Source: an uncultured bacterium
Lineage (GTDB): Bacteria; Planctomycetota; J058
Direction: 5' to 3'
Assembly: GCA_937911525.1 (NCBI GenBank)
Contig: CALDQK010000390.1
Span: forward strand, 1-41,194
DNA length: 41,194 nt
Made by a program: the position numbers and the translations under genes. A model generated the notes under the pieces. The model made no database searches, was not told where the DNA came from, and saw only the letters and a list, made by a program, of their open reading frames with translations. Shown here in pieces: positions 20,426 through 39,323 of this stretch. How positions within the stretch are numbered: position 1 is the stretch's first letter; each line of letters starts with the position of its first letter.

Positions 20426-21412
20426 TCACTTCAAGCTGTCTTCCAATGCCCACAAGAAGCGCTCGTCCATGACAATCGCCTCTTGTTCGAGCCACATGTC
20501 GCGCTGCGAGAGGTCACGAACCCAGGGGGGAGTGTCCGGGGGCCACTCCATGACTGGCCACTGTCGCATCAATCCCTTCTCATCCGAGTAATCCTCCCAG
20601 AACTCGGGCACGAACCACCTGACCTCCGGCCTCCACCGTCGCAGATGAGAGACGATCGCAATCCCATTTGGATCCAGGTCTCCGAAGTGGATGAGCGGGA
20701 CGTCAGCCATGCCCTCTAGAAGGTCCTTTGTTGTTCGGGTGTTCCAGCCCGGCACGTGAACCACCAGGACATCCTCTGGGGCTGGGCAGTCCAGGTACGC
20801 TCCCAGGTTCTCGATGGTTAGCACAGCGCGCGGGATGTCACCTGCTAGCTGCGTCCCATCGCGAAGGGCGCGATCACTCACAACAAGTTCGCCGAGCAAC
20901 TGGGTAAGGCCACGAGCAGCAGTCACCAGACCATCGCGTTTGACGGCCAAACCTCGACTGGCTCGCATTCGTACCAACCCGTCATAGGTCACGTCAACGT
21001 CCTCTAGGACCAGCTGCTCGAACGGACCCAGGCGAGCCTTGGAGTGCTCAGCCACTGCAGCCGCAGCGGTTCTTCTGTTCAATCGACTCGGGAGTTCGAG
21101 CATGCTCGCAGCCTCGATTCGGTCGTGACGCTCTAGCTCTCGAAGTCCATTCGGCGTATAGGGAAGCTCCAATTCGCGCAGTCGCTCCGCAAAGTCGGAC
21201 CACTCAGGCCATGCAGCGCTCAGCGTCGCTTCGACCGAGTCCCGAGCGACGTTGTCGAGCTCCAATACGCCGCTCCGGCGGCTGCGACGGGCCCAACCAA
21301 GGTCGAGCAAGGTGGACCACGCGCTCTCTTGATTCCTTCGCCGGCGAACCTCGCCCGTAAGCAGAAGCTCTACCAGTGCCAGAGCATGGGGCCTGGTCCC
21401 CCAGAATGTCAT
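20426..21412 (-). CDS. jetD: JetD-like protein (DUF3322/DUF2220, Toprim-type nuclease of Wadjet systems)
   Basis: 328 residues, ATG 21412 overlapping the SMC gene stop (ATGA). The N-terminal half is the helical DUF3322-like part. The C-terminal half carries the DUF2220/Toprim-like core: VLTIENLGAYLD with the catalytic Glu (about residue 201), HFGDLDPNGIAI with the Asp-x-Asp pair (about 243-250), and a terminal LEQEAIV segment. In Wadjet (JetABCD) JetD cleaves circular plasmid DNA once the JetABC SMC complex has extruded it. The key acidic residues look intact, but the partner SMC gene is truncated and the kleisin/KITE genes (jetA, jetB) are absent, so the system should be inactive here. Confidence 0.8.
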   Translation of the reverse strand: MTFWGTRPHALALVELLLTGEVRRRRNQESAWSTLLDLGWARRSRRSGVLELDNVARDSVEATLSAAWPEWSDFAERLRELELPYTPNGLRELERHDRIEAASMLELPSRLNRRTAAAAVAEHSKARLGPFEQLVLEDVDVTYDGLVRMRASRGLAVKRDGLVTAARGLTQLLGELVVSDRALRDGTQLAGDIPRAVLTIENLGAYLDCPAPEDVLVVHVPGWNTRTTKDLLEGMADVPLIHFGDLDPNGIAIVSHLRRWRPEVRWFVPEFWEDYSDEKGLMRQWPVMEWPPDTPPWVRDLSQRDMWLEQEAIVMDERFLWALEDSLK

Positions 21413-24387
21413 GGGTCGTGCCGCCTGGCTCGGCGCCCCGAGACATTCACGACCTCACGTCCCTCAGAATCCGTCGTCCGCTGCAAGGTATAGGTGGTGT
21501 TCCCGCTCGACGTGGCCACCTCTGGGGCTGCGGCCAGCAGCTGGAGATCGAGTGCTGCACACAGGTCGAATAGGACCCCCAGATTGTCGAGCGAGAGGCG
21601 ATTGGCTTCGTCTAGGAACAAGAATCGGAGCGTTCCGGTCTCTCGGCGGGCACGGATCAGAGCAGCATCACGCTCCCACGCGGTCAAGACCACCATCATG
21701 ATGGCTGCACCAACGCCAATCCCCTCGCCAGTAGACATCTGGGCTCCGTCTCGCACTTCCTCCCAATCGTCGGAGTTGCTTCTCCGCGCTTCGACCCTGA
21801 GCTTGAGGTACTCCCGGTAGTCCAGTATCCGCCGCCCGCCGTCTCGACGTCCTCCGTGCCGCCGGAACAGCTCGTCCAATGCCTCCTCGATGGACATGTC
21901 GGGACCGAACAAAGCGCCCTGTTGGTCCGGGTCTGACAAGGCTGAGAGGATCGAGCTCATGCTCTTCTCCCGTTCGCTCTTGACTCGGATCGCCTCGATG
22001 CTGCCGAAGCCAACCCCGCGCAGATCGCGGTTTAGCTTGGTGAGTAGGTTGTTCACCTTGCGGAGTCGTCCCTCGATCGCCCGCGCAACGTCTCGAGAGT
22101 CTCCGCGAAGCCGGTGTTCGTAGCGTTGGAGCTTGTCCACCAGGCGATCCAGGTAGCGGCGCAGCCTGCGCAACGCTTCAACTGGGTCTTCGACTTCACT
22201 GACGTGCTTGGGTACTCGCTCAGCAAGCCAAGCTCGGGTGTCGAGCCACGCGCGCACGTACTGATCACTCCCAGTCTCCGTGCTCGACTCGGCGATGAGA
22301 CGCAGGGCCGCTGCTAAGCTCTCTCCGCCAGTAGCGCGCTGAAGTCGGTCAAGCATCAGCGCCCACCAATGCTTCCGGAGTTGGAATACATCGACACTGG
22401 CGTTCCCTGCGACCTCCTTCAACGCCTCATCCCCAAGAGCGGCCTCGAGCAGCCCCAGTTCGGCGCACCTAGCCTCCAACGCCTCCCAGCGGGCAACGGC
22501 CGGCCCGGCCTGCGCTTCTTGCTCAGTGCGCTCCTTGATCGCCGCCCCTACTCTCGTTTCGGCTGCCGCGACTTGGGGCTCGATGCTCGCGAGCAGGTTG
22601 CCGGCAGCCTTCGTAGCCTCTACTGCTGCGTCGTGCCCTGCGATCGCCGCGCGTGCGGCCGCCTTAGTCAATCGAAGTGCCTCGTCCGAAGCATCATCGA
22701 CTCCGCAGGCTTCGATCTCCGCGTCCATGGCTCGTAGACGCGCGCGACTCCCTTCAACCCTCCCCTCTGCGTCTCGGAGATCCTTCTCCCGATCGTTCTC
22801 GTCTTCCTTCCGTCGGTTGCGCCTTTCCCGAGCCTTCTCCAAGAGTTTCTCTGCTGCCTCGACCTCTGCGTTGAGTGAGGCCAAGAGTTCCTCCTCTGCC
22901 CGAATCCTCTCCTCGGCGTCAGCGAATCCCAGAGCTTCGAGGTCACCCTTTACCGACTCTAGGTCAGCTTGGGGAGCGAGCCATGCGTCCCGAGTCCGTT
23001 GAGCATTCGCAACACGCTCCTCAAGTTCTCTGCGATCCGCAGCGTTGAGTGGAGGCGTGCGGAGATCGTCCAATCCACTGGCGACGATCTCCTGGTCAGA
23101 CAGCAGGCGGTCAACCCGGCGACTCGCAGCAGCTGCAGCCGCGACCTCCTGCTTGAGTTGCGCAGCGCGTTCAGCATGTTCAGGAGGCGGCAAGAGGGTC
23201 GCGTCAGGCCAGACCTCCTCTAGCGCCTGCTTTCGTGTCCTCAGTTGCCCCCACCTGTCGGTGAGCAATCGCAACCTGGCTCGTGAGTCTTCCCTCTCAG
23301 CCTGGGTCTCGACGAGCTCGGCTTCAGCGCTGGCGAGTTGCTCTGCGGGAGGCGGCCCAACAAGCAGGTCACTGTTCGGGAGCAGAGAGCGAACGCTCTG
23401 AGCATCTGCCCCTAGCGTTCTGTGACGCTCACGCTTCTCAGTGAGTCTCTCGTCGAGACTCTTCTGCTGGGCCTCCAACCGGAGGATCACCTGCTCACGC
23501 GCTTGACGTCCAATGACGGGGGCGTCAGGGAGACGGGAGAGCCTGAGCCCGAGCCCTTCTTCTACAGCTACTGAACCTCTAAGAACCTGTCCAGCAGGCA
23601 AGTCCTCCGGAGAAATCCCCACCTCCCTGCCATTCAGGAGCAGAACGGAAGGAGGAGTGTCCGAATGTTGCGCGAGTTCCTGGGCAGCTGAGTCAGCATT
23701 CTCGACGAGGATTGCGTTAACAAGCGGCCCTAGCCGCGCCTCCACTTCGGCTGCTTCCTCTACCCCTACAGTCTCGAATCGTTCAACGAGGAGGCGCCCG
23801 TCTACTCGCTCACATGCCTCAGGGAGCCCCTGGGGGAAGCTCCCCCCCATGCTCCTCAGCTCCTGGAGCCGAGCCTCCAGGGTTACCGCCTCCTGTTCCG
23901 AATCGTCGATGCTCCGTTGGGAAAGGACCCGCTCCGACTCCAAGAACGCCAGCAAGGCGGACAAGTCCGCGGGGTTGTAAACTGACTTCTCCCACCTTCC
24001 AGCGAGTGACGTGACGGCTGCACTGAACCTCCGGTGCTCATCAACGCGCTCCTGTAGAAACTCCACCTTGTCTTGGATTGCCTGGATCGCGGCTGCGAGT
24101 CTCTGAAGGTTGGTCTTCTCTGCTGAAACTTCGTCCTGAGCATCAGACTCTGCTGCTGACGTGTCTCGCCTGGCGCGCTCAACGTCCTGGGGGTCATTCA
24201 GAGGCATGTCTGGGGTTGCCAGCCCTGCCCCAACGGTCGGGCTGCTTACGCCCTCCTGAGGCGGGCCTGGGGAAAGGACGGGCTCAAGGACCTCGACGCC
24301 TTGGGCGAGACCCTGACGGCGCGGGGCCGCGGGCGCCTCTTGGAGCTGGCCTACGAGCGCTACCGCGCCAAGGACGCGAGCGCTCAC
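21409..24387 (-). CDS. jetC: MukB/JetC-type SMC ATPase, N-terminally truncated
   Basis: Homology to SMC proteins covers about 930 residues and begins near 24,230. The first ~50 residues of the open frame are antisense of the next gene, and an internal ATG lies at 24207. Visible in order: coiled coil, a hinge-like region (LGPLVNAILVENADSAA and VLRGSVAVEEGLGLRLSRL, about residues 215-300), a long Glu/Arg/Ala-rich coiled coil, and a C-terminal head with signature MSTGEGIGVGAAIMMVVLTA, Walker B LRFLFLDEANRL and QLLAAAPE. The signature and the Ala-Ala-Pro-Glu box match MukB rather than canonical SMC. The N-terminal head with Walker A and about 500 residues are missing, so it cannot form a working ATPase. 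Its stop overlaps the JetD-like start. Confidence 0.75.
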   Translation of the reverse strand: MSARVLGAVALVGQLQEAPAAPRRQGLAQGVEVLEPVLSPGPPQEGVSSPTVGAGLATPDMPLNDPQDVERARRDTSAAESDAQDEVSAEKTNLQRLAAAIQAIQDKVEFLQERVDEHRRFSAAVTSLAGRWEKSVYNPADLSALLAFLESERVLSQRSIDDSEQEAVTLEARLQELRSMGGSFPQGLPEACERVDGRLLVERFETVGVEEAAEVEARLGPLVNAILVENADSAAQELAQHSDTPPSVLLLNGREVGISPEDLPAGQVLRGSVAVEEGLGLRLSRLPDAPVIGRQAREQVILRLEAQQKSLDERLTEKRERHRTLGADAQSVRSLLPNSDLLVGPPPAEQLASAEAELVETQAEREDSRARLRLLTDRWGQLRTRKQALEEVWPDATLLPPPEHAERAAQLKQEVAAAAAASRRVDRLLSDQEIVASGLDDLRTPPLNAADRRELEERVANAQRTRDAWLAPQADLESVKGDLEALGFADAEERIRAEEELLASLNAEVEAAEKLLEKARERRNRRKEDENDREKDLRDAEGRVEGSRARLRAMDAEIEACGVDDASDEALRLTKAAARAAIAGHDAAVEATKAAGNLLASIEPQVAAAETRVGAAIKERTEQEAQAGPAVARWEALEARCAELGLLEAALGDEALKEVAGNASVDVFQLRKHWWALMLDRLQRATGGESLAAALRLIAESSTETGSDQYVRAWLDTRAWLAERVPKHVSEVEDPVEALRRLRRYLDRLVDKLQRYEHRLRGDSRDVARAIEGRLRKVNNLLTKLNRDLRGVGFGSIEAIRVKSEREKSMSSILSALSDPDQQGALFGPDMSIEEALDELFRRHGGRRDGGRRILDYREYLKLRVEARRSNSDDWEEVRDGAQMSTGEGIGVGAAIMMVVLTAWERDAALIRARRETGTLRFLFLDEANRLSLDNLGVLFDLCAALDLQLLAAAPEVATSSGNTTYTLQRTTDSEGREVVNVSGRRARRHDP

Positions 24388-28013: not shown

Positions 28014-29075
28014 CTAAGCAGCCTCCCGGTGGTAGTGGCGCAGGAGCCCGCCGAGGCGGGATCGACAGAGAAGTCTGCCCTCCTGCTGGCCGACGGTCGG
28101 CCCAGGGTCGATCAGGGCGCTATCGAGGCCCTGGTGGTTCCTCTCTCGGTGGTAGTGCTCGACGTATTGAGCAACCGCGTGGCGGAGGTGCCCTTCGCCC
28201 AGGATCACCATGCGACCGAGGCACTCGTGCTTGATCGAGCGCACGAAGCGCTCGGCGTAGGCGTTGAGGTTCGGGCTTCGGCGAGGCAAGGTCACGACCT
28301 GGACTCCGCTGTGCCTAAGAAGTTCCTTGAAGGCTGCGGTGAAGAGCGGATCCCGGTCGAGGATCAGGTGGGTCTTGCCCTGGAGGAAGCCGTCGAAGTC
28401 GTTGAGCAGGTTGCGAGCGACCTGAAGGACCCACTGGCCGTCGGGGTCGGGCTGGATCCCTGCTATATGAACTCTCCGCGTTCTGAGCTCCATGACAAAG
28501 AACACGGAGTAGCGGACGATTCCCCGCAGGGTCAAGACCTCGACCTGGAAGAAGTCACCAGCGGCCAAGCCTTCCCAGTGAGCAGCCAGGAATTCTCGCC
28601 ATGAGGTGGAGCGGTTTCGCTCCGGGGCTGGGACGACGCCCTTGTCGTCCAGCACTCGCTTCACGGTGCTGCGGCTCGTGGAGTATCCGAGGTTGTGGAG
28701 GACGTCGCGGAGGCGGGTGTAGCCGAAGCCAGGGTTCTCGTGAGCGAGGCGGAGGAGGAGGGGCGCCAGCTGCTGGCGCCTCCGGGGGCGACCCAGGGGC
28801 TTGGAAGAGTGTTTCTCCGCAGCGAGGTTGCGATACCAGCGCAGGATCGTGTCCGGGGTCACCAACGAGGCGTAGCGAGCCAGGAGCGCCCTCCCAAGCG
28901 CCTTGCCAGCCTGAGCGAGCCGGTGACGCTGACGAGGCGTGTAGCGCAGCCTGCGGCCTCCGAGCTGCTCTCGGAGGGTCTCGTTCTCGGCCTGGAGGTA
29001 GGCGATCACCGTCTGCTGCTCCCGAGAGACCCAACCGACGGCCAAGAGGAGGAAGAATCGGACGACGTGAGGCAT
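28014..29075 (-). CDS. DDE transposase with integrase core (IS3/IS481-like)
   Basis: 353 residues from ATG 29075. The N-terminal region is a helix-turn-helix-type segment ([34 protein letters not shown]); the C-terminal half is an rve integrase core. Catalytic residues are visible: Asp in [15 protein letters not shown], Asp in [10 protein letters not shown], and Glu in [14 protein letters not shown]. The open frame is intact and full length for this group, which is widespread in planctomycetes and acidobacteria. It is a complete single-ORF transposase, but I could not define terminal inverted repeats or a target duplication, so element limits are unknown. It lies between the tandem repeat array and the ATPase operon. 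Confidence 0.9.
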
Positions 29076-29775: not shown

Positions 29776-31653
29776 ATGAGCTTCCAGCGGATCCGTTCAA
29801 TAGAGATCGACGAGGGGTTCCTTGGCGGCTTCCAGCAGGAGCTGTCGGGCCACCTGAACTGCGTGATCGGCTCGCGCGGCTCGGGCAAGACCACCCTGCT
29901 CGAGTTCCTCCGCTACGCGCTGCAGGTGCCGGTCGAGGACTCGCGCAGCCTCGAGGGCCTGGTGAAGAAGAACCTCAAAGCGGGCAGGATCCGCGTCGAG
30001 GTCGAGACCCCCCTGGGGGTCTTTGTCGTTGAGCGCCAGGCCAAGTCCGCCCCCAAGGTCTTCGACGCCCAAGGCGCCCTGATCCACTCGCCCCCCGAGG
30101 GGCTGCTCAAGACCGGCGCATACGTCTACAGCCAGTCCGAGATCGAGGCCATGGCGAGCAAGCCCATGGATCGCCTGGCCCTGATCGACCGCTTCGCCCA
30201 CGACGACCTCGAGACCGTCAAGGCGACCTTGGAGCGCCTCGACAGCCAGCTCCAAGTCTCAGCAGCGCAGCTCCAGAGCCTGCATGGAGAGGTGGGGGAC
30301 GTGGAGGCGCTCCAGCACGACCTGGAGTCCGCCCGGATCAAGCGAAAGTCCTTCGAAGGAGGCCAGGTCGACACCAATGCGCAGCTTCAAGCCGCCACCG
30401 CTGCCGCTTCCGCCCGAGCTGAGGAGGAGCGCGTCGTCAAGAGCCTGGCGAAGGGGGCCAAGGCCACGGAGCTAGCCCTAGACGAGTCGCGAAGCCGAGC
30501 CCTTGAGGGTCTTCAGCCCCGCCCTGTGGGCGCGGCGTCTCCGAATCAGGACGTCTTGAAGCGGATCCAGGCTGCGCAAGAGCGTCTTCGACAAGCAATC
30601 GAGCGCCATATGGACGCCGCCCAGACAGAGGTGCGGGAGTTCCTCGAGGAGTGCCGCTCGGTTCGGCATGCGCTCTACGAGCGGCATCATGAGCAAGGCG
30701 CGGCCTTTTCGGAGTTGCTGAGGCAGCAGGAGGTCGCCAAGGCAGCCGCAGCGGCGATTCTGGAGGCCGACGCTGCCGTCGCGTCGCTTGAGGAGAAGGT
30801 TCGGGATCAGGAGGCACGCCTCGCTCAGCTCTCGCGACAGCGCCACGCGCGCCAAAGCCAGATCGCCCGACTCTCAGAGGCACGGGATCGCCGTCGCGCA
30901 ACACGCCGCAGGGTCGTTGAGTTCCTCAACGAGAACCTCGTGGGCGCTGGAATTCGTATCGAATTCCAAGGTCAGGGCGACACTCAAGCCTTTGAGCAGG
31001 CGCTCTCCAACTTCTATCGAGGGACAGGGGAGACGGGCCAGAAGCGCGTGATTGCGGGCGTCGTCGAGCACCTAAGCCCTAGCGAGTTCGCGCGCCTCGT
31101 CGCGGAGAATGCAGCGGAAGAGCTCGCGACACTGACCCACGTGGAGCGGGCGCATGCCGAGTGGCTGATTCGTCACCTTCGTGGCAAGCCGGAGCACTAC
31201 CAGATCGAGGTGCTCGACCTCCCTGACGTCCCCTCGATCCTGTTCAAGGACGGAGAGGAGTGGAAGTCTTCCCACGAACTCAGCACCGGGCAGAAGTTCT
31301 CGGCGATCCTCCCGATTCTCCTCCTGCAGAGTGACAAGCCTCTGATCTGTGACGAGCCTGAGAGCCACCTGGATCAAGACACCCTCATGGAGAAGATCGT
31401 TGACCCAATCAAGAAGCTCGCAGGCAAACGACAACTGATCTTCGCGACGCACAACGCGAACATTGTCGTCTTGGGAGACGCGGGGCAGACCCACGTCGTC
31501 GTCCTGGAGTCCACAGGGACCGCGGCCCGCGTGGTTCGCGCGGGGACCGTTGACGACGCCAAGGTCGAGATCGGAGCCCTACTGGAGGGCGGACCCGAGG
31601 CCTTCCGCGAGCGCGCACGCCGCTACGGAGGGAAGTATGAGTCCCGATCTTGA
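29776..31653 (+). CDS. SMC/ABC-type ATPase (TrlF-like, no PHP domain)
   Basis: 625 residues from ATG 29776. Walker A is GSRGSGKTT near residues 32-40. A long coiled coil rich in Ala/Gln/Glu/Arg follows (about residues 150-390). The C-terminal head holds the ABC-type signature LSTGQKFSAILPILLL (about 500), Walker B PLICDEPESHLD (about 520) and RQLIFATHNANIVVLGDA. The signature, the THNANI box and the ending LEGGPEAFRERARRYG closely match the ATPase of TrlF-type proteins, which elsewhere carry a PHP nuclease domain that is absent here. Such ATPases dimerise around ATP and often sense DNA or RNA ends. The last 17 nt overlap the histidine kinase gene, so it heads a coupled operon. Its role as sensor for that two-component pair is inference. 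Confidence 0.85.
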   Translation: MSFQRIRSIEIDEGFLGGFQQELSGHLNCVIGSRGSGKTTLLEFLRYALQVPVEDSRSLEGLVKKNLKAGRIRVEVETPLGVFVVERQAKSAPKVFDAQGALIHSPPEGLLKTGAYVYSQSEIEAMASKPMDRLALIDRFAHDDLETVKATLERLDSQLQVSAAQLQSLHGEVGDVEALQHDLESARIKRKSFEGGQVDTNAQLQAATAAASARAEEERVVKSLAKGAKATELALDESRSRALEGLQPRPVGAASPNQDVLKRIQAAQERLRQAIERHMDAAQTEVREFLEECRSVRHALYERHHEQGAAFSELLRQQEVAKAAAAAILEADAAVASLEEKVRDQEARLAQLSRQRHARQSQIARLSEARDRRRATRRRVVEFLNENLVGAGIRIEFQGQGDTQAFEQALSNFYRGTGETGQKRVIAGVVEHLSPSEFARLVAENAAEELATLTHVERAHAEWLIRHLRGKPEHYQIEVLDLPDVPSILFKDGEEWKSSHELSTGQKFSAILPILLLQSDKPLICDEPESHLDQDTLMEKIVDPIKKLAGKRQLIFATHNANIVVLGDAGQTHVVVLESTGTAARVVRAGTVDDAKVEIGALLEGGPEAFRERARRYGGKYESRS

Positions 31654-32716
31654 GGCGCTCGCGAAGCGACTGGATCGGGGCAGTTGGACCGAGCGCGAGG
31701 AAGCGCTGCGCAAGGTTCGGCGCCTCGCCGAGAGCCTGCCGCCAACAGCCTTGGAGGAGCTGCTCGAACCGCGCTTGAGCGTCCTGGCTGCCGACTCCAA
31801 GTGGGAGGTCCGCCGAGGTTTGGCGCGCGTGCTGGGGCACTACCGCAGCGCGAGTGCGCGAAACGTGATCGAGCGGCTGTGGGGCGACGACAACGCTCAG
31901 GTCTCCAAGACGGCCCAAGAAACGCGGAAGCGCTGGACGGCCGACGATCGCGAACTCGAGCGAAGGAGGGCGCTGGAAGAGACGCTCCCTGAGCGTCTTC
32001 GCGAGCTGCGCGACCGAGACCCCGAAACGGCCCAGGCCGCAGAAGAGCTGGCGTTCCGGCAGTCAGCGCTTTCGATCGGCGCTCTGGCTCACGACCTCGC
32101 GACCACCACCTTCAACCTCGTCAACCTCAGACGTCGCGCCGAAAGCCTGCTCGCCGACACCGACCCCGGCGAGCGAGAGCCGTTCCTCTCTGGCCTGGAT
32201 CGGCAGATCGACCTCCTGAACGCGCTCGTGCAGGACTCGCGCTCCTACGCGGTGAGCGCCAACACCCCCTCGACTCAGACACCGCTCCGCCAGGCCGTAG
32301 AGAACGCGGTCGCGCGAAACCAGGCTCGACTGGAGGGAGTCACCGTGCGACTCAAGATCGGCGACGAGCTCGCCGCCTTCGTGCCTCGCGAGCCCTTCGA
32401 GCGAGCACTCGGGAATTTGCTCCGAAACGCGGGTGAGGCCTTCGAAGAGGGGCCGGGGAGCGTGATCGTTCGGGCATTCGAGGAGGACGAGTGGGTTGTG
32501 CTCGAAGTAGAGGACGACGGCATGGGTATGGAAGACCCGATTCGTTGCCTCCAGCCCTACGCCTCGACCAAGAAACGAGGAGGCGAGATTCACAGCGGCC
32601 TCGGGTTGCCAATCGTGCGCAGGATTGTGGAGACCGCTGGGGGAAGCCTGAGCATTCACTCAACGCTGGGAGCGGGCACGCGGGTTAGGCTGCAGCTCCC
32701 AAGGTGGAGCGCGTGA
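31637..32716 (+). CDS. Soluble histidine kinase with HEAT-like N-terminal domain
   Basis: 359 residues from ATG 31637, fixed by GGAGG 5 nt upstream. Residues ~1-105 look like HEAT repeats (WTEREEALRKVRRLAESLP, SKWEVRRGLARVLGHY, DDNAQVSKTAQETRKRW), a protein- or nucleic-acid-contact solenoid. No transmembrane helix and no PAS/HAMP domain are present. The transmitter follows: a dimerisation helix with ALSIGALAHDLATTTFNL (phosphoacceptor His about 152), N-box NLLRNAGEAF, G1 VEDDGMGM, and G2 SGLGLPIVRRIVE. All catalytic ATP-binding motifs are present, so it should autophosphorylate and pass phosphate to the regulator encoded next. With no sensor domain of its own, it probably receives its signal through the HEAT region from the upstream ATPase. 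Confidence 0.87.
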   Translation: MSPDLEALAKRLDRGSWTEREEALRKVRRLAESLPPTALEELLEPRLSVLAADSKWEVRRGLARVLGHYRSASARNVIERLWGDDNAQVSKTAQETRKRWTADDRELERRRALEETLPERLRELRDRDPETAQAAEELAFRQSALSIGALAHDLATTTFNLVNLRRRAESLLADTDPGEREPFLSGLDRQIDLLNALVQDSRSYAVSANTPSTQTPLRQAVENAVARNQARLEGVTVRLKIGDELAAFVPREPFERALGNLLRNAGEAFEEGPGSVIVRAFEEDEWVVLEVEDDGMGMEDPIRCLQPYASTKKRGGEIHSGLGLPIVRRIVETAGGSLSIHSTLGAGTRVRLQLPRWSA

Positions 32717-33564
32717 TCCTCGTTGTCGAAGACCAAGAATCCATGCGTGGGATCCTCGCCGACCTCTTCCGTGGCGAGGGCTACGAGGTCGAGGTCGCCT
32801 CGGCGCGCAAGAGTGCAGAGAGCCTCCTGGCGCAGGGGGGCTTTCGACTCGCGATTCTGGACTACGAGATCCCCCTCGAGGATCGCCCGACCTCCTTCGC
32901 CTCCACTGCACAGGGCAAGGCCGTCATGGAGGCGGCAGAACGAGCGAAGGTTCCCTTCGTCGTTCTCACCGGCGTCGCCTACGACTGGCAGCAGGCCTTC
33001 GCCGCCCGCGCGGCTCTCGACTACTTGGACAAGTCCGACGCTCGCACCTTCGATCGGCTCCTCGAGATCGCGGCTCAGGTCTTCGCCAACCGCAGCGGAG
33101 GGCTCCCGCTTGAAGTGGAGCGCTACCAGGACGGCAACGTCATGCGGCTCCACAAGGATCGGCTCGTGCGGGTCTGGGTGACAGGCCAGCAGAGGCGCTA
33201 TGAGGTGGTCGTCACAGAGGGAATCGAGCGCTCGCTCTACCACTTCGCGGAGGCGCAGGGCGAGGACATGCCCTGCACGTTCCCACACGTCCCCAATCCA
33301 GATTCGCGCCGCAGCGCAGCGCGTGACCTCCGGGCATGGCTTCGAGAACACTTCGAGCCTTCGACTCCGACCGATCCCAAGGCGCCAGTGATCTCGAACA
33401 ACAGGGGTGGCTACTACTGCGAGGTCACCGTTCTCAACGAGCCCGACCCCTTCGAGTACGAAGAGCGACGGCGAGGCATGCGCGAGGCGGGAACCGAGAT
33501 CAGTCCCGAGGCCAAAAGCGACGACGGGGAGTCAGACGGCTACCAGCGTCGCCGCCCACGTTAG
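32704..33564 (+). CDS. Response regulator with unusual C-terminal domain
   Basis: 286 residues from GTG 32704, overlapping the kinase stop. The receiver domain (about 1-125) has the acidic pair in LVVEDQES, phospho-Asp 53 in LAILDYEIP, Thr in FVVLTG and Lys in YLDKSD, so it can be phosphorylated. An insertion (EDRPTSFASTAQGK) after the phospho-Asp is unusual. The C-terminal 160 residues are not a standard output domain: SAARDLRAWLREHFEPS then VISNNRGGYYCEVTV resembles a winged-helix of the OmpR/Trans_reg_C type, and the end is acidic. A DNA-binding role is possible; TAAGGACTTA copies near the operon and near the next operon are candidate sites. Confidence 0.8.
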   Translation: MERVILVVEDQESMRGILADLFRGEGYEVEVASARKSAESLLAQGGFRLAILDYEIPLEDRPTSFASTAQGKAVMEAAERAKVPFVVLTGVAYDWQQAFAARAALDYLDKSDARTFDRLLEIAAQVFANRSGGLPLEVERYQDGNVMRLHKDRLVRVWVTGQQRRYEVVVTEGIERSLYHFAEAQGEDMPCTFPHVPNPDSRRSAARDLRAWLREHFEPSTPTDPKAPVISNNRGGYYCEVTVLNEPDPFEYEERRRGMREAGTEISPEAKSDDGESDGYQRRRPR

Positions 33565-34157: not shown

Positions 34158-34381
34158 CCCGCGCTGGCAAGCGCCTCAGCCAGATTGAGGCACTCAGAGA
34201 GGAGATCTGTCGGCTTCGCCTGCAGCTCGAGTCCGACACCTATCAGTTCGAGGCCCTCGCGGCCTGGGCCTTGGAGGCGGGCGCCGACCCCGACGACGTC
34301 GTCGGGGACCTGCACGAAGCCGCCGAGCGTGCGGTGTGGTCCATGTCGCTCGAGTTCGGGTTCGAGCGAGGTGCGGCATGA
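34154..34381 (+). CDS. Small phage-cluster protein (75 aa), unknown
   Basis: 75 residues from ATG 34154, coupled to both neighbours by ATGA overlaps. The N-terminal half is a charged helix (LSQIEALREEICRLRLQLE), probably a short coiled coil; the rest is acidic and Ala-rich. The helical, leucine-zipper-like start would suit an oligomeric accessory factor. No family is recognised. Confidence 0.65.
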   Translation: MTRAGKRLSQIEALREEICRLRLQLESDTYQFEALAAWALEAGADPDDVVGDLHEAAERAVWSMSLEFGFERGAA

Positions 34382-34968
34382 GGCGCACCGTGTTCTCGAT
34401 CCCTCCCGAGCAGCGGGAGCGGATTCGTCAGGGGATCTTGGAGCTGGAGCGCGAGGGCGAACGCGCCTCGGTCCGCTTGATTCGTGAACGCGTTGGTGGC
34501 TCCACCGACGTGATCGCGTTCTTGGTGCGGGCCGTTGCGGCAGGCTTCATTTCGCCCGAAGAGCCGTGGGACGGGCGGGTGGCTCCCCTCGACCTGAGGG
34601 AGGCGATCCGGGCAGCTACCACCCACGACGACCACGTTCGGATCCACCAAGAGGTGGCCGCCCGAGTGGCGTGCGGGGACATGAAGCCCCAGATCGCAAA
34701 GTCGATCCAGGACAGCATGACGGCGGCGCGGCTCAGCGCGAAGGCGGCCCTGGAAGCGAGCCCGCCGGTTCACGGCGAGGACTCGGTTCAACTCGTCGAC
34801 CGGGCGACCTTCTTGATCTCTCGCGTCGTGAACCGGATCGCCTCGCCCTCGATCCTCGAAGAGGTCCAGGCCTTCGTCTACGACGCCGGACGCCGCGACC
34901 TCGACGAGTTCCCGAACCCCACGATCGACGAGGTCAGCCACCTCCGAGGGGAGGGGCTGCCCTCGTGA
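34378..34968 (+). CDS. KfrA-like DNA-binding protein, small-terminase candidate
   Basis: 196 residues from ATG 34378. The first ~60 residues have a helix-turn-helix-like pattern reminiscent of KfrA N-terminal domains (ILELEREGERASVRLIRERV then GGSTDVIAFLVRA). A helical middle and a C-terminal segment (IDEVSHLRGEGLPS) follow. It is the only DNA-binding candidate immediately upstream of the HNH and large terminase genes, the position of a small terminase subunit in many phages. That function is inferred from position; sequence resemblance to known small terminases was not seen. Coupled on both sides by 4-nt overlaps. Confidence 0.6.
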   Translation: MRRTVFSIPPEQRERIRQGILELEREGERASVRLIRERVGGSTDVIAFLVRAVAAGFISPEEPWDGRVAPLDLREAIRAATTHDDHVRIHQEVAARVACGDMKPQIAKSIQDSMTAARLSAKAALEASPPVHGEDSVQLVDRATFLISRVVNRIASPSILEEVQAFVYDAGRRDLDEFPNPTIDEVSHLRGEGLPS

Positions 34969-35390
34969 ACTCCCCCACCACGTGGGGGCGGGGAGTGCGA
35001 GCGCGGCTCGCACTCCCCGAGGTTCCCCCAATGATCCGCTCGCTCCTCACGGAGCGTGACGGGACCGAGAGCTGCGCAGCCTGCTTGCGGATAGGCCTCA
35101 CGCCGCCTGCCAGCGAGCCGCTCGAGGTCGACCACAAGCAGCCGATCTCGCTGGGTGGCGACAACCACTGGACCAACCTCCAGATCCTCTGCCGCTACCA
35201 CAACCGCAGCCGAGGCAACCGGCCCGTCGACCCGCGTCGGCTTCCGACTTGGTTGGCGCAGTTGGCCCGAGAGCGACGACTCAAGGCACACGTCGCCTGG
35301 TGTGAAGCCTGTGGTCACGTCTGGAGCCCAGTCAGCAAGTGGCTCGCCTCTCAGGTTGAGGTGCTGCTAGCGAACGAGTCGGCGTCATGA
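34965..35390 (+). CDS. HNH endonuclease (phage packaging-associated)
   Basis: 141 residues from GTG 34965. The core is HNH: SCAACLRIG (first Cys pair), LEVDHKQPISLGG, NLQILCRYHNRSRGN. A second CEACGHVW Cys pair follows near residue 115, so two zinc-binding knuckles are possible. HNH proteins next to the large terminase are common in siphophages and assist cos-type packaging cleavage. An internal ATG at 35031 is an alternative start, but the GTG overlapping the previous stop keeps the operon's pattern. Confidence 0.85.
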   Translation: MNSPTTWGRGVRARLALPEVPPMIRSLLTERDGTESCAACLRIGLTPPASEPLEVDHKQPISLGGDNHWTNLQILCRYHNRSRGNRPVDPRRLPTWLAQLARERRLKAHVAWCEACGHVWSPVSKWLASQVEVLLANESAS

Positions 35391-36787
35391 GCGGCTCGCT
35401 CGACGATCTCGAAGACCTCGGCTACCTCCAGGGTGAGCCGCGGCACCGCCAAGGAACCTGCGCGCAGCGCTCGCTGGGGTTTGAGCCCTGGTGGGGCCAG
35501 CGCCTCGTGCGACGCTCCGACGCTCCGTGCCGAGTCCTCGTCGCGGCGCGACAGGTGGGCAAGAGCTACCTCGCTGCACACCTGGTGATCGAGGTGGCGC
35601 TGGGACAGCCGGGGTCCTACTCGGTCCTCCTGACGCCGACCTACCTCCACGCTCGCCCCGCGATCGACACCCTGCGGCGGATCTGCCTCCACCTCCCCGA
35701 CTGCGAGTGGCGAGAGCAGCAGAAGCGACTGGTGTTCGGGAACGGCTCGATCCTCCAGGTCTTCTCGGCAGACCGGCCCCATGCGGTTCGCGGTCCCGCC
35801 CTCTCCGGCATTCTCTGGGTCGACGAGGCGGCCTTCCTGCGGCCAGCCGCCTGGGAAGCAGCCCTGGGTGCGCTGAGCTCCTCGCAGAACCCGCGCAAGC
35901 TCCTGACCACCTCACCGCTGGGCAAGAACTGGGTCTTCAAGGAGTTCGTCACCGGCAACGCAGGCAACGAGCCCTTCCGCTTTCGCTCGGCGGACAGTCC
36001 CTACGTCAACCAGGAGGAGGTCGCTCGCAACCGCGCCAAAATGACGCCAGAGCGAGCCGCGCAGGAGTTCGACGCCGAGTTCGTCGATTCGCTCTTGCTC
36101 GTGTTCCCTGACCTCTCGCGGCTCTTCGTGAAGACCGTGGGGACGCACCCAGAGACCCCCAAGCGAGCGCTTGGGGTCGACCTCGGCAAGGACCAGGACT
36201 GGACCGTCGTCGTCTTGATCAATGAGTTCGGCGAGGCCGAGGTCCTGGGGCGCTGGCGCCACGTCAATTGGCCCGAGACCGAATCGCGGATCCTCGACCT
36301 GATCGAGACTCACCAGGTCTCGATCACCTGCGTCGATAAGGCCTACGTCGGCGGCTACCTGATCGACCGCCTCAAGGCCTTGGGCAAGAGCGTGCTCGAG
36401 CTGGCCACCAGCTCGCGCCAGCTCAAGGCACGTGTCATTGAGACCCTTCGTGCCGACGTCCAGCACCAACGTGTCCACGTCCTCGAGAACGAGCACTCGG
36501 ATCAGCTCCACTATGAGCTGAGCCGCTTCCAGGCCACGCAGCACGCTGTCCACGGACGACTAGAGACGCGCTACGAGTCTCCTGAGGTCCGCGGCGAGCA
36601 CGACGACTGCGTGATCGCGCTGGCGCTGGCGAACTGGGTCCGCCACCACGGCTTGGTCGGGCCCAAGCCCGTCCGGGCCGATATCCGTCGCTACGTCGCG
36701 TCCGCCAAGCGGATCTTCGGCAACGACCACTGGCCGAAGACGCCAGGTCCCGACGGCGGCTACTACGGGCCGGGGTTCCTCCTATGA
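35387..36787 (+). CDS. Phage terminase large subunit
   Basis: 466 residues from ATG 35387 (ATGA overlap). N-terminal ATPase: Walker A-like CRVLVAARQVGKSYLAAHLV (Lys about 59), Walker B ILWVDEAAF (about 144-152) and the coupling motif LLTTSPLGK. C-terminal RNase H-like nuclease: ALGVDLGKDQDWTVVVLI (first Asp about 266), CVDKAYVGGYLIDRL and HDDCVIALALANWV (about 405). All three acidic positions expected for the nuclease are present. It would translocate DNA into the prohead through the portal encoded next and cut it. Length and motif order match the standard large terminase. Confidence 0.92.
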   Translation: MSGSLDDLEDLGYLQGEPRHRQGTCAQRSLGFEPWWGQRLVRRSDAPCRVLVAARQVGKSYLAAHLVIEVALGQPGSYSVLLTPTYLHARPAIDTLRRICLHLPDCEWREQQKRLVFGNGSILQVFSADRPHAVRGPALSGILWVDEAAFLRPAAWEAALGALSSSQNPRKLLTTSPLGKNWVFKEFVTGNAGNEPFRFRSADSPYVNQEEVARNRAKMTPERAAQEFDAEFVDSLLLVFPDLSRLFVKTVGTHPETPKRALGVDLGKDQDWTVVVLINEFGEAEVLGRWRHVNWPETESRILDLIETHQVSITCVDKAYVGGYLIDRLKALGKSVLELATSSRQLKARVIETLRADVQHQRVHVLENEHSDQLHYELSRFQATQHAVHGRLETRYESPEVRGEHDDCVIALALANWVRHHGLVGPKPVRADIRRYVASAKRIFGNDHWPKTPGPDGGYYGPGFLL

Positions 36788-38133
36788 GCGACCCCGCGAG
36801 AGACGCGCGGCCCTTCGGCCGCGCCCCAAGCAGCGGCGGCGACTCGCTCAACGTCCGAGCCTCGGCGGCCTTCGAGCACTTCGTCGGGCAGCAGCTCCGC
36901 CACCCCAATCCCGCCCGCGTTCCCCTGTCCTACCTCCGCGCCATGGACGACCACGCCATGGTCTACCTCGCGGAGCGCACGGTGACCGGCGTCGTTCGGC
37001 GCCCCGACCTCTACTACGTCGCCCACACCGATCCGCGGATCGTGAAGGAGACCGAGGAGTGGCTCTGGCCACTGCTCCCGAGCCTCCTGGGCTCGATCGC
37101 GCGGGCCTACGCCTTCGGCGCGATCCCCGTGGTCTGCAATTGGACCTGCGAGGACCTCGCCCACGACGAGCTGCGCTGGCCGGATCACGTTCACTACAGC
37201 TCGGCCCACGAACTGTGGCCCGAGGACGTTGACGTCGAGACCCGAAACGACGCGTTGATCGCGCTGCGCCACGAGGGCAAGCGCTACCTCGCCGAGCGGG
37301 CCCACGTCTTCGTCTGGGACTTCGCCTTTGGCTCCTGGCGAGGCCGTGCCGCCCGGCGTCGGGCCTGGTGCGACTACTGCCGGAGCCTTTCCACGGAGCT
37401 GCTCCAGCTCCGCTACCTCGAGCGGAGCGTGGACTCGCCTCGCGTCGGCTACGCGCCTGCTGGCTTCGTTGCGACGGGCGGGACCGAGGTCGACGCGATC
37501 GACCACATGAACCAGCTCTTGGGCACCCTCCAAGGCTCGGGAGCAGTCACCTTCCCGTCTGAGCGCGACGAGAAGGGGAACCTCGTCTACGACGTTCGCC
37601 TCCTCGACGGGCCCGACCGCCAGACCGTCTGGGAGCGCTCGCTGAGCCGCTACGACGCGGGGATCCTCCGCGCCTACCTCGTCCCACCACGACTTGCGGG
37701 CCTGGAGGAGATCGCCGCCACGGGGGCCCGAACCCTCGACGGCATGCTCAAGGAGTTCATACAGGACCTGGCGCAGTTCGCAGGCGATCAGCTCACCCAG
37801 CTCGTCGCCAAGGTCCACCGCCACAACCATCCCGAAACCCGCGTCCCGCCGCCCGAGGTCAAGGCCTACGAGGTCCCCGCGTCGGTTCGCAAGCTCTACC
37901 TGGAAGTCCTGCGGCTCGTATCCGCAGCCAAGCGAGAGGAGTCCCCAGCCGACTGGGTCGACGTTCCCTCCCTCCTCGATCAACTCGGTGTCCCCCTCCG
38001 TCGAGAGCCGCTCCGCGGCTCCAGCTCCGCCCCGACAGGGCGACCTCCCGACCTGACAGGCGGGAGGCAAGCGCGCCGCGAAGCGGCGCGGAGTGAGGAC
38101 CCGAGCCCCGATCTAGAAGGAGGTGAGTCGTGA
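36784..38133 (+). CDS. Phage portal protein (DUF935/Mu-gp29-like)
   Basis: 449 residues from ATG 36784 (ATGA overlap with the terminase). No short catalytic motif exists for portals. Support comes from position directly after the terminase, from length, and from portal-like blocks: YLAERTVTGVVRRPDLYYV, IARAYAFGAIPVVCNW, HMNQLLGTLQGSGAVTFPSE, and VPPRLAGLEEIAATGARTLD near residue 300. The last ~50 residues are Arg/Pro/Ser-rich and low-complexity, and the strong ribosome-binding site of the next gene lies in them. It would form the dodecameric DNA entry channel. Confidence in the family is moderate; confidence in the role from context is higher. Confidence 0.7.
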   Translation: MSDPARDARPFGRAPSSGGDSLNVRASAAFEHFVGQQLRHPNPARVPLSYLRAMDDHAMVYLAERTVTGVVRRPDLYYVAHTDPRIVKETEEWLWPLLPSLLGSIARAYAFGAIPVVCNWTCEDLAHDELRWPDHVHYSSAHELWPEDVDVETRNDALIALRHEGKRYLAERAHVFVWDFAFGSWRGRAARRRAWCDYCRSLSTELLQLRYLERSVDSPRVGYAPAGFVATGGTEVDAIDHMNQLLGTLQGSGAVTFPSERDEKGNLVYDVRLLDGPDRQTVWERSLSRYDAGILRAYLVPPRLAGLEEIAATGARTLDGMLKEFIQDLAQFAGDQLTQLVAKVHRHNHPETRVPPPEVKAYEVPASVRKLYLEVLRLVSAAKREESPADWVDVPSLLDQLGVPLRREPLRGSSSAPTGRPPDLTGGRQARREAARSEDPSPDLEGGES

Positions 38134-39323
38134 GTCGACTTATCAGTGTGTTGGTGTTGGTGGTGTGTTTTGGCGGGTTCGCCTGGGGGGCGGACTTGCC
38201 GCCGGTGGACCGAAAGCCCCCTGGGGCGGAAGGGAGTGGGGTCACTGAGGCGGTGACCAAGGAAGAGGAGGGCTTGGACGACTTCTCGTTCGACGCCTTC
38301 CGGGATCTGGTGCTCGGGCGGACGACGGTCCGCGGAGCGCTCAGCGCGGGGTATTCCTACAACCTCGCGGATCCGGAGCAGCACCGAGGCGGGAACGCGC
38401 TTCGGCTGAGCGACCCGGATCACAACAGCTTCGCCCTGACCCACGCGGTCTTGGGGTTGGAGCGTCGGGTCGATCCGAACAGCGACGTGGACGTGGGCTA
38501 TGGCCTCGATCTCACGGTCGGTCGGGTCGTGGACGAGGCCTACGACGACGGCCTCCTCCAGTCGCGAGGGATCGCGGTCGGGCAAGCCTACGTGGACCTC
38601 AAGACGCCGCTCTTCGGCGGAATGAAGTTCCGAGCAGGTAAGGAATACGGATGGTTCGGGCTCGACTCGGTCGACCTGAGCCGCAACTTCCACCAGTCGC
38701 TCAGCTACGCAGCGCTCTCGGCGCCGCGAACCCTCGTGGGGGTCTCGGCCGAGATCGAGCTCCTGGACGGGGTGACCTACGCCCAATACCTGGTCAACGG
38801 GTCTGACCTCGCGATCGACGACAACGACGCCAAGTCGCTGGCGGGCCGCCTGCGCCTGGCCTCGGATCGAGGGTCGCTCACGCTGAGCTACATGCTTGGC
38901 GCCGATCGTTTCGACAGCGAAGGCGAGCTGAGTTGGATCGCGGAAGCCGTCGCGACCTACCAGCTGACGGACACCCTGTCTGTCGGCGGCTTGGTCCGCG
39001 TCGGCCAGGAGGAGGTCAACGGGTCGGTCCGTGAGTTCGGCCTCCTCGAGGCCCAGGCTCGGGTCTCGCTCTTCGACGGCCTGCTCCACCTCGGGGCACG
39101 GGCCAGCGTCCTCCACGACGAGGACGGAATGATCACGGGACGCGACCAGTCGCTCTTCGAGATCACGGCGACGGCTGAGCTGCGCTTGGCTGAGCAGTTT
39201 GGCGTCGGCGCGGAGTTCCGTCACGACGAGTCGTCCGAGGACGACGCTTTCGGCGGGAGTCGAGGTGCTGCCACGCGCAGCAGCCAAGACACCCTCTCGT
39301 TCTTCGTTCGCGTCCGCTTCTAA
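38130..39323 (+). CDS. Outer-membrane beta-barrel (porin-like, bbp2/OmpL type) in the phage operon
   Basis: 397 residues from GTG 38130. A near-perfect AGAAGGAGGTGA ribosome-binding site ends 5 nt upstream, so the start is well supported although it overlaps the portal stop. A cleavable signal peptide is clear (basic MSR, then a Leu/Val-rich core, FAWGAD cleavage region). The mature part alternates polar and hydrophobic residues in strand-like runs (VRGALSAGYSYNL, LTLSYMLGADRF, FGLLEAQARVSLF, LFEITATAEL) and ends with the aromatic SFFVRVRF, the typical C-terminal outer-membrane insertion signal. This is an unexpected product between portal and protease genes. It is an outer-membrane protein by every sequence mark, and phage morons such as Lom are the closest functional idea, but its role here is unknown. 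Confidence 0.75.
   Translation: MSRLISVLVLVVCFGGFAWGADLPPVDRKPPGAEGSGVTEAVTKEEEGLDDFSFDAFRDLVLGRTTVRGALSAGYSYNLADPEQHRGGNALRLSDPDHNSFALTHAVLGLERRVDPNSDVDVGYGLDLTVGRVVDEAYDDGLLQSRGIAVGQAYVDLKTPLFGGMKFRAGKEYGWFGLDSVDLSRNFHQSLSYAALSAPRTLVGVSAEIELLDGVTYAQYLVNGSDLAIDDNDAKSLAGRLRLASDRGSLTLSYMLGADRFDSEGELSWIAEAVATYQLTDTLSVGGLVRVGQEEVNGSVREFGLLEAQARVSLFDGLLHLGARASVLHDEDGMITGRDQSLFEITATAELRLAEQFGVGAEFRHDESSEDDAFGGSRGAATRSSQDTLSFFVRVRF

Follow-up and report, generated by a model that had tools for sequence, protein, structure and literature searches.

A trio of SMC-like ATPase, HEAT-repeat histidine kinase and response regulator in a planctomycete prophage, probably an undescribed kind of virus switch

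The DNA analysed here (the window) is a stretch of 41,194 nucleotides from an uncultured bacterium of the Planctomycetota (lineage J058; assembly GCA_937911525.1, contig CALDQK010000390.1), and it carries three adjoining genes for a TrlF-family SMC/ABC-type ATPase, a soluble HEAT-repeat histidine kinase and a response regulator. The trio is one conserved module whose genes are made together, and the window copy resides in a planctomycete prophage. It probably works as a virus switch of a kind not described before. The reading we prefer, to which we give a probability of roughly 0.58, is that of a phosphorelay module of mobile elements that sets lysogenic versus early-gene expression; for the window copy this role is inferred by analogy with its relatives.

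The three open reading frames (ORFs) lie at 29776-31653, 31637-32716 and 32704-33564, all on the forward strand, and their coordinates reproduce exactly the overlaps of 17 nt (ATPase/kinase) and 13 nt (kinase/regulator) from which the original prediction, made from the sequence alone, had concluded that they are made together. Conserved trios in diverse genomes had been named there as support for a system, and such trios were found. Contigs C938, C828 and C149 of this genome (10.2 Mb in 1342 contigs) hold three more complete trios, with overlapping genes in the same order and about 35% identity between the ATPases. When one genome per species was scanned with these four ATPases as queries, 80 related ATPase loci were obtained (L numbers below denote these and the other loci compared); at 59 of them the ATPase gene is followed on the same strand by a HEAT kinase gene, nearly always with the regulator gene next where the contig continues, and the intergenic gaps are mostly 45 nt or less or short overlaps. 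The further copies in the genome and the 59 of 80 related loci indicate that the trio is a real module and not a chance arrangement. Its hosts belong to Planctomycetota, Verrucomicrobiota, Lentisphaerota, Myxococcota, Alphaproteobacteria, Magnetococcales, Acidobacteriota and Neomarinimicrobiota, and the ATPase tree shows a patchy spread with cross-phylum placements. Of the loci, 50 have flanks of 4 kb or more, and 28 of these (32 when serine recombinases are counted) show phage or mobile-element hallmarks; three IMG/VR viral contigs carry the trio, one of them with portal and head-protease genes confirmed by PHROGs.

The position of the trio could be compared best in the prophage-like elements of Magnetococcales, in which the gene order is DUF2924, serine recombinase, a variable slot, AAA_24 (Sak4-like), DUF669, PD-(D/E)XK, helicase and primase. 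AAA_24 homologs were collected in the Magnetococcales class, together with alphaproteobacterial and viral elements, and 17 elements had the recombinase and AAA_24 on one contig. The slot holds a repressor in 10 of these, the trio in 6, neither in 1 (L189) and both in none. The repressors are cI-like with helix-turn-helix (HTH) and S24 domains in L181 and L183, XRE plus ImmA in L182, L185, L187, L188, L157 and L158 (partial in L190), and LexA-like in L159 and L197 (partial in L195); their M78, S24, LexA and HTH domains were confirmed by Pfam. The trio occupies the slot in L162, L198, L199 and L200 and in the alphaproteobacterial or viral elements L021 (to which L120 is near-identical) and L119. 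With the elements treated as unrelated, the hypergeometric chance of zero overlap is 7/12376, about 6e-4, and slightly different counts gave 7e-4. The trio lies between integration and early genes in Magnetococcales, alphaproteobacterial and viral-contig elements alike. Pfam gave no DNA-binding domain for the remaining slot proteins examined in L021, L119 and L023; L043 has an extra HTH/sigma-like protein. A Sak4-like gene was found, across 240 alphaproteobacterial genomes, only in the query genome. As separate observations, the L068 element runs on into genes that by reading resemble those for an antirepressor, a lysozyme and tail proteins, and the L021 element seems to run into host genes and may be defective.

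A second line of evidence comes from operator-like palindromes. In Verrucomicrobiota the trio and an early operon (Sak4-like or DUF669-like) point away from each other across a region of 175-380 bp, and the pattern TGATACCGG or CCGGTRTCA occurs in 2-5 copies within 180 bp 5' of the ATPase gene in L014, L015, L034, L042 and L054; the upstream region of L038 has GGCATCA variants. The same pattern gave one match in 84 kb of 22 trio-less verrucomicrobial loci. A motif-free enumeration likewise found CGGTATC repeated in 4 of 6 verrucomicrobial loci, against at most 2 in shuffles. For the 199-bp divergent region of L014, from Chthoniobacter flavus Ellin428, TGATACCGGTATCA is a candidate site for the regulator. 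No clear alternative repressor was seen beside the Sak4-like gene of the trio-less verrucomicrobial elements, so that in this phylum the argument for a switch is the one from operators. Upstream of the magnetococcal trios L043, L044, L048 and L068, a different pattern, TGTCTATCATCTGRTGAGACACA, occurs in 2-3 copies and is absent from 13 trio-less magnetococcal elements and from shuffles. The operator search gave nothing convincing for alphaproteobacterial and Phycisphaerae trios, and no shared repeat or operator-like palindrome was found 5' of the window trio. The C938 trio is preceded by an iteron-like array of 12 CCTTCCC repeats (L005:3277-3626).

The protein that would bind such sites is the response regulator (32704-33564, 286 aa, GTG start). 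The original prediction had described a receiver with an insertion followed by an unfamiliar C-terminal domain. The receiver was recovered by Pfam (Response_reg, 4e-7), and its insert after the phospho-acceptor Asp is common to the relatives; the C-terminal part turned out to be less unfamiliar, since structure prediction gives an OmpR/PhoB-type winged helix (residues ~146-239, 33139-33420). The topology of the window model points to this fold at low confidence (low predicted local distance difference test, pLDDT), and the model of the regulator of L061 gives it at high confidence: AlphaFold (pLDDT 86) places after the receiver a set of beta-strands, three helices and a wing (160-260), and then a second winged helix (301-358). 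The top PDB matches of this model in Foldseek are full-length OmpR/PhoB regulators (RpaA, MtrA, VanR, CosR and KdpE), and those of the window regulator, the C-terminal part of whose model is of low confidence, are likewise full-length regulators of this type. Given the fold and the structural matches, the predicted output is most likely DNA binding and transcription rather than toxicity. Among 56 regulators of this winged-helix branch, a receiver is present in all, Pfam assigns HTH_11 to 13 and a DeoR-type HTH to 6, and no Trans_reg_C match was obtained. Residues L6, D10, D53, G71 and K110 of the receiver are invariant in them, Asp53 (codon 32860-32862) being the predicted phospho-acceptor. 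A toxic effector in the regulator C-terminus was also considered and ruled out, as no toxic or nuclease domain was present in these 56 proteins.

The kinase (31637-32716, 359 aa) matches HEAT_2 (1e-8) and HATPase_c (3e-18), with neither a membrane nor a PAS domain among its Pfam matches, in keeping with the HEAT-like solenoid that had been read as its only input. From residue ~147 onwards, its DHp-CA core can be aligned with kinases of solved structure. The predicted phospho-acceptor His152 (H-box AHDLA, codon 32090-32092) and N264, G295, G297, G321 and G323 are invariant among 58 kinase relatives. In a PADLOC scan the kinase was unmatched, and the regulator was matched weakly and in its receiver part only. 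The kinase gene of a same-genus relative (L063:11856-13010) is split in two frames, possibly as a decayed copy or through an assembly error.

The ATPase (29776-31653, 625 aa) matches AAA_21 and AAA_23 in Pfam and aligns with the TrlF-family model NF045780 (E 3e-74) over positions 289-944 of 944, that is, over everything after the PHP part; positions 1-288 are unmatched, and its score of 251 bits is under the curated cut-off of 350. SMC/ABC motifs and a TrlF-type C-terminus with no PHP nuclease had thus been read correctly. Walker A GSRGSGKTT (residues 32-40, 29869-29895; G32, R34, G35, G37 and K38) and the stretch from the ABC signature LSTGQK to the Walker B/D-loop DEPESHLD (residues 502-533, 31279-31374; S503, G505, Q506, D526, P528 and E529) have these residues invariant in 55 related trio ATPases. 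Against the Ppl model the ATPase scored 101 bits (cut-off 1000), with the best stretch limited to the C-terminal ~126 residues. No complete homolog of the ATPase was found in 50,697 phage records, which gave partial matches only. ATPases without kinase or regulator occur as orphans in Nannocystis and a related genome (L052, L056, L058-L060), where they nest in the tree beside the trio ATPase L055. In L071:9989-13900 and L083:9809-13882, the gene after a stand-alone TrlF-like ATPase encodes a ~660-aa protein of unassigned type, and the ATPase in L083 is preceded by what reads as a HerA-like ATPase.

Taken together, these features suggest how the proposed switch might work. Modules of the cI, LexA and ImmA type respond to DNA damage; given that these are the modules replaced, and given the kinship of the ATPase with SMC/RecF proteins, it would be the sensor, probably of a condition of the DNA (for instance ends, gaps or foreign replication). 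The HEAT repeats are the only input domain of the kinase, so that contact with them is the simplest way in which the ATPase would alter kinase activity. The kinase is predicted, from the intact conserved residues, to phosphorylate Asp53 of the regulator, whose winged helix may bind the palindromic operators in the control region, with phosphorylation setting the binding. The regulator would in this way set lysogenic versus early-gene expression, the lysogeny decision being the target. From the operator position and this action of the regulator, the trio would do the job of cI, LexA-like or ImmR/ImmA pairs.

Several observations weigh against such a switch. The slot count is uncorrected for the relatedness of the elements. 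The operator patterns were first counted in the sequences of their discovery, for which the trio-less elements are the independent control. A gene for a WYL regulator adjoins the magnetococcal trios and could own TGTCTATCATCTGRTGAGACACA. Some trios adjoin defence-type genes and not phage genes, namely type I restriction-modification in L012 and L033, a Cas3-like gene in L016 and prokaryotic Argonaute (pAgo) genes in L061 and L087, and the Nannocystaceae copies L028, L030 and L041 look chromosomal. In the window lineage the position of the trio is no proven repressor slot, and the genome holds two further modules of this packaging family in which no trio stands beside the terminase.

A broader reading widens the proposal to a general DNA-state sensor, made of the ATPase and the HEAT kinase, with a swappable receiver-fused output that is either a prophage transcription factor or a TCAD9/APH-kinase-like enzyme that would give plasmids a conflict system; we hold this at somewhat below even odds, as we do its further proposal that the transcription-factor form replaces cI, LexA or ImmR as an SOS-independent lysogeny switch in many phyla. 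It draws on a second branch of the module, found on Klebsiella, Shinella, Vibrio, Phaeobacter and Caballeronia plasmids, in which the gene order ATPase, kinase, regulator is kept and a TCAD9/APH-kinase-like sequence, fused to the receiver, forms the end of the regulator (L225:6998-11143, L226:6013-10176, L227:4986-9133, L228:4995-9164 and L229:4995-9173). Relatives of the TCAD9 regulator are also found on Piscirickettsia, Leclercia, Pantoea, Rhizobium and Rhodococcus plasmids. The plasmid-branch ATPase aligns with that of the window over the full length (E 7e-71), and so do the kinase core and receiver with their counterparts. The TCAD9 branch forms one clade (100) in the ATPase tree, beside the winged-helix branch (Shimodaira-Hasegawa-like approximate likelihood-ratio test 86), with PHP-TrlF and stand-alone ATPases outside both. 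Since the plasmid branch keeps ATPase, kinase and receiver and changes the C-terminal domain, the sensor pair looks constant and the output exchangeable at the level of sequence. TCAD9 is a domain tied to conflict systems (PMC10910872), and the plasmid branch is itself a candidate conflict system. It shares TCAD9 with the vWA-MoxR-VMAP ternary conflict systems from which that name comes; unlike in those systems, vWA, MoxR and VMAP domains were not seen in the three proteins.

The main rival to a switch is defence. In this explanation, which we consider unlikely, the trio is anti-phage or anti-plasmid cargo of prophages and plasmids: the ATPase would detect foreign DNA and the relay would trigger a response, by transcription of nearby or host genes in the winged-helix branch and by a kinase-like toxin in the TCAD9 branch. 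It owes its standing to the likeness of the ATPase C-terminus to Ppl, AriA, LmuB and GajA (PADLOC comparison), to the restriction-modification, pAgo, Cas3-like and WYL genes among the neighbours and to the conflict-linked, enzyme-like ending of the plasmid branch, and prophages often carry defence genes (PMC13092281). However, none of the 56 regulators of the winged-helix branch has a toxic or nuclease domain, the trio fills the repressor slot and never stands there together with cI, LexA or ImmA, and the candidate operators lie in the divergent region that controls early phage genes. This slot, operator and output evidence favours the switch. The defence module of the original prediction is therefore doubtful where the contexts are best resolved, the trio filling the repressor position there, and keeps some ground in the restriction-modification, CRISPR-type and pAgo neighbours and in the plasmid output.

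It is improbable, in our estimate, that the trio is an accessory sensor and that lysogeny is in truth repressed by another protein, such as a WYL regulator in Magnetococcales and Lentisphaerota and some unknown small protein in other groups. A WYL domain is present in 11 of 90 upstream neighbours, and at least 11 trios have a WYL-regulator gene within ~320 bp; upstream of L032, L043-L045, L048, L049, L053, L068, L070, L076 and L118 it is about 120-270 bp away from the ATPase gene and mostly divergent. WYL factors sense single-stranded DNA in DNA-damage responses (PMC11804915, PMC12340889), and the operator is weak at L045, where the WYL gene is non-divergent. Against this, verrucomicrobial and alphaproteobacterial trios, near which no WYL gene was found, still occupy the control-region position. 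Least probable of all is that the trio serves the host as a regulator of DNA damage or stress, that its targets lie in other parts of the host genome and that mobile elements happen to spread it. This would suit the copies in Enhygromyxa and Plesiocystis that adjoin a nitroreductase gene and look chromosomal, and the orphan ATPases of Nannocystis, yet the four divergent copies in one genome and the patchy cross-phylum spread fit a mobile rather than a core function.

The proposed lysogeny switch resembles known systems in parts. With ImmR/ImmA (ICEBs1-type), a pair of repressor and anti-repressor protease (PMC8960796), and with cI/LexA-type repressors, the trio shares its place, which in sister elements is flanked by the recombinase and the early genes, and, as predicted, a DNA-binding output and the control of mobile elements; it has ATPase, kinase and receiver instead of an XRE HTH and an M78 or S24 peptidase. 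OmpR/PhoB two-component systems have the same receiver, winged helix and HisKA-like kinase core, from which the trio differs by a soluble HEAT kinase with no membrane or PAS input, a coupled ATPase, the receiver insert and often a second C-terminal HTH. TrlF and Ppl combine PHP and an SMC-like ATPase in one chain, whereas the trio ATPase, which aligns with NF045780 end to end past position 289 and matches Ppl in its C-terminus, lacks PHP and is paired with kinase and regulator. Detocs, which the original prediction had named, also uses two-component signalling in a mobile or defence setting, with another sensor and nucleotide-targeting effectors in place of the ATPase and transcription-factor output. 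The literature searched on TrlF, phage two-component switches and TCAD9, with subscription papers outside its coverage, does not describe the trio composition, which agrees with the earlier statement that no such system was known. A figure legend of DefensePredictor names, as untested, a system that has HATPase and REC domains.

Prophage induction is explained mostly by RecA-triggered repressors. If the switch is real, elements of Planctomycetota, Verrucomicrobiota and other groups would have a different way to monitor the state of DNA, and prophage switches would gain a new class, based on a phosphorelay with its own SMC-like sensor. The trio would offer a defined input (the ATPase), a relay and an operator, and the output swap on plasmids would tie prophage regulation to conflict systems through one sensor.

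The surroundings in the window bear out the placement of the trio between an insertion sequence and a phage cluster. On one side lies a transposase-like ORF (28014-29075, reverse strand) of the upstream insertion sequence, identified by reading and of putative family; a homolog occurs near the trio of L035. On the other side a phage packaging module (34336-38133, forward strand) contains the terminase large subunit (35387-36787; PHROG 2, E 6e-35) and, by reading and synteny with L005, L134 and L135, a probable portal (36784-38133) and a possible small terminase and HNH gene; ORFs 34336-34968 and 36784-38133 were unmatched in the PHROG search. Farther upstream (20426-24387, reverse strand), JetD-like and weak JetC-like ORFs of Wadjet type were seen, JetA and JetB being undetected. 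By reading, prophage modules of this lineage have within or next to them genes for a family of beta-barrel outer-membrane proteins (window 38130-39323, L006:4499-5764, L007:3345-4622, L134:3042-4316 and L135:12010-13221), in many cases along with an LpxR-like gene; for these proteins receptor change or superinfection exclusion is possible. A trio-less prophage of the same genome carries a Mom-like DNA-modification protein just 5' of its terminase (L135:5148-5828), and adjacent polynucleotide-kinase-like and Thg1-like genes near the C828 trio (L006:14207-15509) read as an RNA-repair pair.

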